Below are positions 82 to 51,447 of a stretch of DNA of 64,000 nucleotides, piece by piece (within the stretch, counting starts at the first letter, position 1; the number at the start of each line of letters is the position of its first letter). Position numbers and translations under genes: made by a program. The stretch covers positions 1,509,501-1,573,500 of the forward strand of contig NZ_AP022847.1 of the NCBI RefSeq assembly GCF_015100395.1. Reading direction: 5' to 3'. Below the pieces are notes generated by a model. It made no database searches, was not told the DNA's origin, and saw nothing but the letters and a program-made list of their open reading frames with translations. Source of the stretch: Nitrosophilus alvini. GTDB taxonomy: Bacteria > Campylobacterota > Campylobacteria > Campylobacterales > Nitratiruptoraceae.

Positions 82-173
82 GTAGAATAAGGTAGAAGGT
101 TGGGAGATAAAGGCAGAAGGTAGGATTTAACTTATCTTTTTATCCTTCTGCCCTGACCCTTCTATCCTTCTGA
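82..173. repeat. Degenerate heptamer array in two complementary halves, overlapping the hemB stop
   Basis: Purine-rich 7-base units run in register from 89 to 123 (consensus AAGGTAG; 89-95, 96-102, 110-116 and 117-123 are near-identical). A spacer of about 17 bases follows, then pyrimidine-rich units (consensus CCTTCTG) to 173. The halves pair: GGCAGAAGG at 112-120 is the exact complement of 144-152. The second half covers the last codons and stop of hemB (162-173). Transcribed from hemB it would form a hairpin and could act as a terminator, although the following T-run is weak. Confidence 0.7.
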
Positions 174-20731: not shown

Positions 20732-22585
20732 CTAAACGATATTCACCGGATCCATATCCACTTCGCAAAATGGTGTCTTAACTGCAGATATGGCTTTTAT
20801 AAGATCTTTTGCGGAGGTTGAACGCAGAAGTATATTGTATCTGTATCTGTTCGCTATCCTCTCCAAAGGAGCGGGACCGCTGCCTATAATCTCAACTTCT
20901 TTGAAATTTTTCAATTTATCAAGGACATCCTGCATATTTTTTCTGGCTGTCTCTTCTTTTTTGTCAGAAAAGAGTAGCAATGCAAGCCTTTTGAAAGGGG
21001 GATAGAGATCTTTTCTACATTTAATTTCTTCTTTCAAAAATTTTTCATAATCTAGATAGTTTTTGAAAAACTCTTCATTCAAAGACTGAACTATCACCTC
21101 ACCCTTCTCTTTTCTTCCACTTCTGCCGGCAATCTGTACAAGCAAAGAGACAGCCTTTTCCCTGGCCCTGTAGTCAGCCATATTCAGAATATAGTCTATC
21201 CCTAGGACCACGGAAAGTCCCACATCAGGATAGTCATGACCTTTGCTAAGCATCTGAGTTCCTACAAGTATATCTATCTGGCCTTTTGAAAACTCTTTTA
21301 AAATTTTTTTCAGCTTATTGTGCGTAGTTATCTCGTCCCTGTCAAATTTTGCCACATTCGTATGCGGAAAAATTTCTCTAAGTTCCTGAACTACTTCGGC
21401 AGTTCCTGGTCTGTTCGCCTGTAAAGAGCTACTTTTGCAATTGGGACACTCTTTTGGTATCGCCTGCGCATAGTCGCAGTAGTGGCACTTCAGTGCATTT
21501 TTGTCAAAATGGATACTCATTCCGACCGAACAGTAGGGACATTTTACAGCCTCACCGCACTCTTTGCAGATGAGATATTTGAAATTTGCCCTCGTAGGAA
21601 GAAAAACGATGGTCTGCTTTTTTTTCTCCAAAACTTTTTTGAGTCCATCTACCACTATCGGGGACAACGGTTCTGTTGACCTGTCGAAAATAAAACTTTT
21701 ATTGGATGCGTAGAAGCCTCCTTTGAGTCTGAAAACAGGATATTTCTCCCAGCTTGATGCACAAGGAGTAGCACTTCCCAAAAGTACCGGAATATCAAGC
21801 TTTTTACCAAAATATACCGCTAGGTCTCTTGCATGGTATCTGGGGCGATTATGCGCTTTGTAACTGTCGTCGTGCTCTTCGTCTACCACTATCAAACCAA
21901 GATCAGTTATTGGCAAAAAAAGAGCAGATCTGGGACCAGCTACTATCTTTGTTTTGCCACAATAGATTCCGTCAAGTATCTCGTTTTTTCTTTTTTTTGT
22001 AAGCCTGCTGTGCCACACGGCTACACTGTCACCGAAAAACCTTTTGAGTCTCTCTTCCATCTGAGGTGTCAAAGAGATTTCTGGCATCAAAAATATGGCT
22101 CTTTTGTTCTCTTTTAAAAGATCTTCAAAATATTTCATATAAATTTCAGTTTTTCCACTCCCGGTATCACCGAAAAGAAGAGAGATTCGATGAGACTTTA
22201 TAAAATTTAACGCCTCTGTCTGTTTAGGTGAAAGGGTGATGGAGGAAGAATTGAACATTTCGCTTTTTGTTTCTTCAACCTTTAGCCTTCTACCTTCTTC
22301 CTTCATAAATGGCACAAAAAGTCCCAATGCCTCACCAATTGAGCAAAAATAGTAGGTAGAGATAAATTTTGCAATTTCAAGATAGTTTCGGGGCAGATAA
22401 AACTCTGTAGTTTTTTCTACTCTTTTACACTCAAATTCCGGTTTTTCAACCTCTTCTAGAACATAACCTTTATAGATTTTTGATTTTATTTCTACTTCTA
22501 CCAAGGCGCCGATATCGATTTTTTCCTCATACGAGTATGTCAAGATCAGAGGTTTGGAAGTTATTGCAACAAGAAAATATCTCAT
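20732..22585 (-). CDS. priA: Primosomal helicase PriA (replication restart)
   Basis: 617 residues. 3'-DNA-binding domain (1-90), helicase Walker A GDTGSGKT at 139-146, DEEH box in VVDEEHDDSYK, eight zinc-binding cysteines in four CxxC pairs (CKECGEAVKCPYC, CHYCDYA, CPNC) and helicase motifs to LVQIAGRSGRKEKGE. Shorter than E. coli PriA but normal for this phylum. Residues about 95-118, the linker before the helicase core, are encoded by a degenerate heptamer array with complementary halves (22226-22303). Coupled by ATGA to the anchored protein upstream. Confidence 0.95.
   Translation of the reverse strand: MRYFLVAITSKPLILTYSYEEKIDIGALVEVEIKSKIYKGYVLEEVEKPEFECKRVEKTTEFYLPRNYLEIAKFISTYYFCSIGEALGLFVPFMKEEGRRLKVEETKSEMFNSSSITLSPKQTEALNFIKSHRISLLFGDTGSGKTEIYMKYFEDLLKENKRAIFLMPEISLTPQMEERLKRFFGDSVAVWHSRLTKKRKNEILDGIYCGKTKIVAGPRSALFLPITDLGLIVVDEEHDDSYKAHNRPRYHARDLAVYFGKKLDIPVLLGSATPCASSWEKYPVFRLKGGFYASNKSFIFDRSTEPLSPIVVDGLKKVLEKKKQTIVFLPTRANFKYLICKECGEAVKCPYCSVGMSIHFDKNALKCHYCDYAQAIPKECPNCKSSSLQANRPGTAEVVQELREIFPHTNVAKFDRDEITTHNKLKKILKEFSKGQIDILVGTQMLSKGHDYPDVGLSVVLGIDYILNMADYRAREKAVSLLVQIAGRSGRKEKGEVIVQSLNEEFFKNYLDYEKFLKEEIKCRKDLYPPFKRLALLLFSDKKEETARKNMQDVLDKLKNFKEVEIIGSGPAPLERIANRYRYNILLRSTSAKDLIKAISAVKTPFCEVDMDPVNIV
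22226..22303. repeat. Heptamer array in two complementary halves inside priA
   Basis: Purine-rich 7-base units run from 22226 to 22253 (AGGTGAA, AGGGTGA, TGGAGGA). After a spacer of about 22 bases, four pyrimidine-rich units run in exact register from 22276 to 22303, each ending CCTT (for example TAGCCTT at 22283 and CTACCTT at 22290). On the coding strand these give the charged segment KEEGRRLKVEETK of PriA. The unit and the arm-spacer-arm layout match the array at the hemB end (82-173). Confidence 0.65.
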
Positions 22586-50137: not shown

Positions 50138-50235
50138 CGGGAAGGTAGAAGGTGAAGCAAAAAGGCAAAAAAGAGAAAAAAACGAAGAAAATCGGCTCAA
50201 CTTTACAACCTTTTTACCTTCACAACTCTCTCCCC
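50133..50235. repeat. Heptamer array spanning the mraY stop and the start region of murD
   Basis: Purine-rich 7-base units from the mraY stop (GGAAGGT at 50140 and AGAAGGT at 50147, then more degenerate units to about 50174), a spacer, then pyrimidine-rich CCTT-containing stretches at 50205-50220 and beyond. The AAGG in the first units is the only ribosome-binding site available to murD, and the GTG start (50152) is inside the array. Same unit family as at 82-173 and 22226-22303. Confidence 0.6.
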
Positions 50236-51447
50236 TTAACTCTTTTCGGCCACGGAAAGACCACAAAAGCGATCGCCGAAAGGATTGCAAAAGCTATTTT
50301 TTTTGACGACAGCGCCGAAAAACCTTATGTAGACGAAAACGGATTTGAAGTATACCCTGCAAATTTATTTGACCCTGACAAATCTTCTTTGGAGATACCA
50401 AGTCCAGGAATCCCTCCTTCAAATCCATTGATAAAAAAAGCAAAAAACCTGATCAGCGAATACGATCTATTTCTCGCTCCGCCCTTCGCCCTTCATCCTT
50501 CACCATTAACCGTCTGGATAAGCGGAACAAACGGGAAAACAACAACAACCGCAATGACAGAGCACCTTTTAAGTTCATACGGTGCCCAAAGCGGAGGAAA
50601 TATAGGCACTCCTCTTGCAAAACTTGATACCCGCTCAAAAATCTGGATTCTTGAGACAAGCTCTTTTACCCTCCACTATACAAAATTTGCAAAACCGGAC
50701 ATATACATACTTCTTCCCGTAAAACCGGACCATATCTCATGGCACGGAAGTTTTGAAAATTATGAGCGATCCAAACTCAAACCGCTTTCAATGATGAAAG
50801 AGGGAGATATCTGCATCATCCCATCGAAATACTCCTCCGTAAAAACAGACGCATTAAAAATAACATACGACTCGGCAGAATCTTTGGCAAAAAAAATGGA
50901 TATCGACACTTCGAAAATCGGCTTCAAGGGTGCTTTTTTGCTTGACGCTCTGCTGGCTCTGTCGGTTTCCAAAATACTTTTCGATAAAACAGATTATGAA
51001 AAAATAAACAAATTTTCCATCGGGGCACACAGGCAGGAAATTTTTACCGATAAAAGGGGCAGGATTTGGTTAGATGACTCAAAAGCGACCAATCCCGATG
51101 CCACCATCGAGGCTCTTAAAGTATATAGCGACAAAAAAATACACCTCATCCTAGGTGGAGATGCAAAAGGAGCCGATCCGGGAGAGCTTTTCAAATATAT
51201 GAAAAATCTTGATATAAAAATCTATCTGATAGGTGCTAGTACAGATGAGTTTTATGGTCTATGCAAGCGATATAAAATCGAATGTATAAAATGCGAAATT
51301 TTGGATATAGCCGTACAGGAAATTGATAAAAAACATACAGAAAAAAGTGTCGCTCTTCTATCTCCTGCCGCTGCAAGCCTTGATCAGTTTTCTTCATATA
51401 AAGAAAGAGGCGAAAAATTTAAAAAATTAGTTTTGAATTTAAGCTGA
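50152..51447 (+). CDS. murD: UDP-N-acetylmuramoylalanine--D-glutamate ligase
   Basis: 431 residues. Adds D-Glu to UDP-MurNAc-L-Ala. N-terminal Rossmann start LFGHGKTTKAIAERI begins only at residue 31, ATP site SGTNGKTTT at 124-132, Mg/carbamyl-lysine region and LDDSKATNPDAT near 306. GTG start at 50152 is the only start codon between the mraY stop and the Rossmann fold. The first 25-30 residues (lysine-rich, then STLQPFYLHNSLP) are encoded by a heptamer array. A second array (50474-50515) encodes APPFALHPSPLT just before the P-loop. The core looks intact. Confidence 0.93.
   Translation: MKQKGKKEKKTKKIGSTLQPFYLHNSLPLTLFGHGKTTKAIAERIAKAIFFDDSAEKPYVDENGFEVYPANLFDPDKSSLEIPSPGIPPSNPLIKKAKNLISEYDLFLAPPFALHPSPLTVWISGTNGKTTTTAMTEHLLSSYGAQSGGNIGTPLAKLDTRSKIWILETSSFTLHYTKFAKPDIYILLPVKPDHISWHGSFENYERSKLKPLSMMKEGDICIIPSKYSSVKTDALKITYDSAESLAKKMDIDTSKIGFKGAFLLDALLALSVSKILFDKTDYEKINKFSIGAHRQEIFTDKRGRIWLDDSKATNPDATIEALKVYSDKKIHLILGGDAKGADPGELFKYMKNLDIKIYLIGASTDEFYGLCKRYKIECIKCEILDIAVQEIDKKHTEKSVALLSPAAASLDQFSSYKERGEKFKKLVLNLS
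50474..50515. repeat. Second heptamer array inside murD
   Basis: Six 7-base units in register: TCGCTCC (50474), two identical GCCCTTC (50481, 50488), ATCCTTC (50495), ACCATTA (50502) and ACCGTCT (50509). They encode murD residues about 108-121, between the N-terminal domain and the ATP-binding P-loop. No complementary arm was found close by. Confidence 0.6.

Follow-up and report, generated by a model that had tools for sequence, protein, structure and literature searches.

In Nitrosophilus alvini, which we take to be a vent bacterium, the replication restart protein PriA has a linker from its 3' DNA-binding domain to its helicase that probably contains one copy of a degenerate heptamer repeat dispersed through the genome, AAGGNNG (CNNCCTT on the other strand). 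We propose that arrays of this unit arise or spread at the level of DNA, that within genes they would survive only at places that can accommodate a flexible insert, and that the PriA array would now act as an ordinary disordered tether of the DNA-binding domain to the helicase, and not as a switch. The window that we analysed is a stretch of 64,000 nucleotides of the N. alvini chromosome, and its relevant features are collected in Table 1.

Heptamer units in the PriA linker

The gene belongs to NCBIfam NF004069 (917 bits) and its product carries the Pfam domains 3'BD (residues 15-92) and DEAD (residues 120-274). In an AlphaFold2 model of mean pLDDT 84.8, successive blocks of 10 residues from residue 91 score 72, 49 and 73, versus 91-96 and 94 in the flanking domains, and the heptamer array falls in this low-confidence linker. 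PriA proteins of Campylobacterota have about 617 residues, and the model has no winged-helix domain between 3'BD and the helicase; sequence matches of known PriA structures begin only at residue 133.

The purine arm reads AAGGAAGAAGGTAGAAGGCTAAAGGTTG on the coding strand (22303..22276), in phase 0 over codons 95-103. Its units are AAGGAAG, AAGGTAG, AAGGCTA and AAGGTTG, neighbours having 4-6 of 7 bases alike, and its core score is reached at 3 of 393,865 positions of background stretches that may themselves hold true arrays. The second arm, AATTCTTCCTCCATCACCCTT, consists of an exact pyrimidine unit (CACCCTT) and two imperfect ones, with one and two mismatches respectively, and it reaches into the conserved L-[ST]-x-x-Q motif; its score is reached at 17 of 394,159 background positions, and a chance origin of such a match in a 60-nt neighbourhood is unlikely but not impossible. 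The predicted hairpin of the two arms was no better than shuffles (z of -0.7 and -0.8). The first-pass annotation had described the linker as a purine arm plus a pyrimidine arm: the former stands, in frame and with 19/20 core positions, but the latter is a weak match (12/15) and its pairing is not significant.

In G003, a relative in the neighbouring genus, the linker is made of four CAACCTT units, and their product NLQPSTF takes the place of KEEGRRL in N. alvini, so that two related PriA linkers carry heptamer arrays of opposite strands. Since the relative's linker is built from the opposite strand, what the two share is DNA and not peptide, and, since the G003 array ends at the same codon, the second arm of N. 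alvini may be a decayed pyrimidine arm. PriA is shared at only 65-67% with the nearest relatives of N. alvini, and the N. alvini linker is no longer than that of the array-free G001.

A seven-base unit lends itself unusually well to coding, since 7 = 1 mod 3 and all frames of a strand therefore give the same cyclic heptapeptide. Frame enumeration gave seven codons for three units and the cyclic peptides NLQPSTF for CAACCTT and KEEGRRK for AAGGAAG; it also showed that the pyrimidine strand is stop-free for any NN, while the purine strand has stops only when NN is xT or TA.

Table 1. Coordinates of priA and of the heptamer arrays in the window
Feature	Position	Strand	Basis or remark
priA, replication restart helicase, 617 aa	20732..22585	-	ORF; Pfam/NCBIfam
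PriA interdomain linker, residues about 91-119	22229..22315	-	AlphaFold2 pLDDT
priA purine arm, four AAGGNNG units, 19/20 core, residues 95-103 KEEGRRLKV	22276..22303	-	sequence
priA possible decayed pyrimidine arm, 12/15 core, codes NSSSITL just before conserved LSPKQ	22232..22252	-	sequence
Purine arm beside hemB 3' end	89..123	+	sequence
Pyrimidine arm; hemB stop codon (162-164, minus strand) inside	143..172	+	sequence
Purine units at mraY-murD junction; murD GTG start inside array	50141..50155	+	N-terminal extension vs array-free relatives
Decayed pyrimidine units in MurD N-terminal extension	50206..50220	+	read by eye
Pyrimidine units coding MurD loop (PPFALHPSPL) before GTNGKTTTT	50480..50507	+	loop ~6 aa longer than in array-free genus

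Distribution of the heptamer

The AAGGNNG unit had also been noticed at hemB and murD, and we recovered it at hemB (89-172) and twice in murD (50141-50220 and 50480-50507). Genome-wide, AAGGNNGAAGGNNG gave 55 two-unit matches in N. alvini (G000, 1.81 Mb) versus 3 for a reversed-motif control, and 49 versus 3, 62 versus 4 and 26 versus 3 in G001, G003 and G007 of the neighbouring genus. The heptamer is near background in a Nitratiruptor-like genus (g3) and likewise in most other families, and the AAGGNNG/CNNCCTT family is typical of two neighbouring Nitratiruptoraceae lineages. Three-unit arrays occur in 12 of the 298 genomes sampled across the phylum, including distant carriers (G120, G273 and G157) with several arrays each, some of them in frame in polysaccharide genes; on contig 21 of G120 and contig 3 of G273 (L227, L228), the same heptamers cluster in frame in genes for NeuC-type epimerases and DegT aminotransferases. 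It is possible that the heptamers are carried along with polysaccharide loci in these distant Campylobacterota.

According to crude gene calls, arrays lie in 47 tandem, 8 divergent and 6 convergent gene spaces and 26 times inside genes (26 of the 88 sampled, about 30%). Both this preference for spaces between co-directional genes and the large number of loci, in excess of a composition control, are as in the heptamer repeats of Xanthomonas and Nostoc. The sites include the 16S-tRNA spacer, positions before tRNA-Trp and tRNA-Arg, and gene starts and stops (the hemB stop, the murD start). Three rRNA operons of N. alvini have a paired array in the 16S-tRNA-Ile spacer (G000:C1 at 619.7, 1448.4 and 1788.6 kb; L047, L054, L055), and others lie inside a longer repeat (..GACGCCAGTTCACCGAAT..GCAAACTGCTTTGCTTTTTCAGGCTCGCAC..) present in several copies (G000:C1 near 316, 365 and 1352 kb; L044, L046, L052). 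Eight of about 21 N. alvini array sites also hold an array in the sister genus (p = 4e-10 in a rough model with 1,850 slots taken as equal). Rfam searches at 14 array loci returned tRNA and rRNA alone, with no known RNA family for the repeat.

Arrays lie in frame in unrelated genes, as do MITE- or RPE-type elements, and they occupy termini, loops and linkers. In a heptosyltransferase they form the N-terminus and two loops, to differing extents in G000, G001, G003 and G007, the N. alvini N-terminus exceeding the others by exactly 7 residues (21 nt, three units); in UDP-glucose dehydrogenase, an array codes the same loop in G000 and G003. Further in-frame arrays were found in the lipoyl-catalytic linker of E2, a loop of a P-type ATPase, the N-termini of HldE and Sua5, and a loop of FliM.

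The unit is not unique to these lineages: at least 120 IMG/VR stretches hold four-unit AAGGNNG arrays, but two control heptamers gave 77 and 78. Inverted partners accompany 29 of 162 AAGGNNG arrays versus 5 of 84 and 13 of 90 for the control heptamers, and from these counts the class of arrays in IMG/VR is broader and not specific to AAGGNNG. The stretches include high-GC DNA and a phage-like contig (L302, IMG/VR contig 3300025313_001854), itself high-GC with phage-like structural ORFs, which has six AAGGNNG arrays within 6.7 kb; several of them overlap the start of a gene and code for HPSSFIL peptides.

Structure, constraint and orientation of the arrays

Paired intergenic arrays are predicted to fold as a ladder, in which 5-bp GAAGG/CCUUC rungs alternate with small internal loops at the unpaired NN; one such hairpin lies between rpmG and tRNA-Trp. 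Most of these hairpins have z values of -4 to -8.5 against dinucleotide shuffles; weaker ones are two in G000 (near -2.3), one in G001 (-3.1) and that of hemB (-1.7). Between orthologous loci of G001 and G007, a pair of about 92% DNA identity, differences affect 20/109 and 15/78 NN positions (0.18-0.19) but 15/271 and 4/199 core positions (0.02-0.055), according to whether the units are defined in one genome or the other (Fisher p of 2.6e-4 and 2.7e-6); calling units as exact underestimates core divergence, but the contrast is the same in both directions. Four-fold degenerate sites of this pair differ at 116/604 (0.192). The NN positions thus diverge at about the four-fold rate and the core well below it, so that NN is neutral and the core constrained.

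The purine strand is in the mRNA for 26 of 31 solo arrays between tandem genes (binomial p = 2e-4). A polarity set by the replication strand was considered and rejected, because transcription agrees better with the individual exceptions and with the GC skew of both G000 and G003; array orientation in G003 flips near 513 kb.

PriA linkers of Campylobacterota as probable landing sites

PriA linkers of Campylobacterota vary widely in length around a median of 19 aa. Of 93 distinct linkers, 17 contain a palindrome with z of -4 or below, whereas none was found in 279 control segments of matching length from the same genes (p = 2e-11); the 93 include some close relatives, so that events are fewer than counts. 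These palindromes are of several unrelated kinds, including GGAAGCGATGCTTTA.., GGATGTGAGGCTTTA.., and those coding peptides of the types ..RHSELDSES and ..VIASEAR.., which probably correspond to repeat-derived peptides known from other bacteria. G009 has a weaker one, which we rejected as a member of a large family (2 copies only). Among these linkers, those of many Sulfurimonas-like genomes hold unrelated palindromic or tandem repeats (L070, L067, L104, L094, L119, L129, L075, L125, L099, L064, L087, L136). The PriA hinge looks like a tolerant spot in which unrelated repeats land repeatedly.

Relation to known repeats

Dispersed heptamers in bacterial genomes are a known kind (PMC4692102, PMC4679880), and repeats that make protein segments have been described in Rickettsia (PMC10969869) and Borgs (PMC9879509). 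Like the GGGNATC-type repeats of Xanthomonas and Nostoc (PMC4692102), AAGGNNG is a dispersed seven-base unit with variable bases, found mostly between co-directional genes, with some inverted pairs and relatively conserved positions. It differs from them by its GAAGG core with two free positions and by the lack of G3-G4 runs, its arrays having only GG runs, 5 nt apart; in addition, about 30% of its sampled arrays are in genes, where they code linkers, and paired arrays form ladder hairpins. The TAACTGA direct repeats of Beggiatoaceae (PMC4679880) are likewise dispersed heptamers of patchy phylogenetic spread near gene starts, but they have a fixed sequence with stops in the sense orientation, whereas the AAGGNNG unit is degenerate and frequently codes for protein. 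Rickettsia palindromic elements (PMC10969869, citing Ogata et al. 2000, 2002) resemble our arrays in being palindromic and in frame inside unrelated housekeeping genes; they are of about 150 bp and code a conserved peptide, in contrast to variable heptamer arrays, often of one arm and in either strand. In Borgs, tandem repeats in ORFs also create disordered protein segments (PMC9879509), with near-perfect units of a length divisible by three, unlike the imperfect unit of seven described here. We found no earlier report of the AAGGNNG repeat in the open-access literature searched, which also appears not to describe a degenerate ladder of this design, a peptide that is independent of frame, or PriA as a hot spot.

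Alternative explanations

It had been suggested that the PriA linker is phase-variable, and a contingency locus, in which heptamer slippage switches PriA on and off or alters the length of its linker, would agree with the shift of reading frame caused by one unit, with the excess of 7 residues (three units) in the N. alvini heptosyltransferase, and with the changes of unit number in intergenic arrays. The priA units are few and unlike: the near-identical, slippable tandem units of phase-variable repeats are absent, with only 4-6 of 7 bases alike. Adding or removing one or two units leads to a stop at residue 98-100, truncating PriA at about 100 aa; removal of three keeps the frame (610 aa), and three added AAGGTAG copies still give a stop because NN = TA. 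Intergenic arrays of close orthologues gain or lose units, unlike the coding arrays of HldE and heptosyltransferase, which between G001 and G007 (about 92% identity; PriA is array-free in this pair) differ by substitutions with equal length and no unit gained or lost. PriA, moreover, is a housekeeping replication protein and not a surface protein. From one genome per species, on/off switching of PriA by unit number is unlikely, and we regard the contingency locus as a whole as highly improbable. A conserved linker of equal length and sequence in species lacking arrays elsewhere, proposed beforehand as evidence against phase variation, is not what we observed, the PriA linker being hypervariable everywhere; this hypervariability would reflect tolerance of insertions and does not imply switching.

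Neutral slippage alone, by which a microsatellite-like array grows from chance sequence under no constraint but the tolerance of the protein, is unlikely: homogeneous arrays such as the four CAACCTT units of the G003 PriA and some unit gains and losses agree with it, but not a core well below the neutral rate beside neutral NN positions, the occurrence of the unit at more than 20 loci, also as inverted pairs, or the occupancy of 8 of about 21 N. alvini sites in the sister genus. A palindromic mobile element (MITE, REP or RPE type) that a transposase mobilises and whose body is the heptamers would explain the inverted arms, the dispersal, the in-frame insertion as in Rickettsia palindromic elements and the use of the PriA site by other palindromes; we consider it quite unlikely, in view of arms of 2 to 6 units, variable loops and many single-arm arrays, with neither conserved terminal repeats nor a fixed length apparent. 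Convergent selection for a charged linker (KEEGRRLKVEE), the heptamer being a by-product of codon choice, is the least probable reading: linkers are often charged and one strand gives K-x-E-G-R-R, but it is contradicted by G003, where the opposite strand codes NLQPSTF at this position, and the unit also occurs in tRNA and rRNA spacers. Against our preferred reading of tolerated DNA-level repeats stand the array sites common to different genera, which would also fit a positive function, and the N. alvini PriA linker, which does not exceed the array-free one of G001 in length. A bolder proposal, which we hold to be distinctly doubtful, is that the core is a maintained recognition ladder for a putative RNA- or DNA-binding trans factor, with conserved rungs and free NN, and that in Campylobacterota the priA linker actively attracts short repeats, possibly because replication restart is close to their spread.

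Significance

Under the preferred reading of a dispersed repeat tolerated in a flexible hinge, a short DNA repeat repeatedly supplies disordered linkers of housekeeping enzymes from either strand and in any frame, because the seven-base unit gives the same cyclic heptapeptide in three frames. The combination of neutral NN positions and a constrained core suggests that such arrays have a function, or follow a copying rule, that has gone unrecognised. The PriA linker would be a natural landing pad for unrelated repeats of Campylobacterota and may offer a system in which to test how DNA repeats turn into protein.
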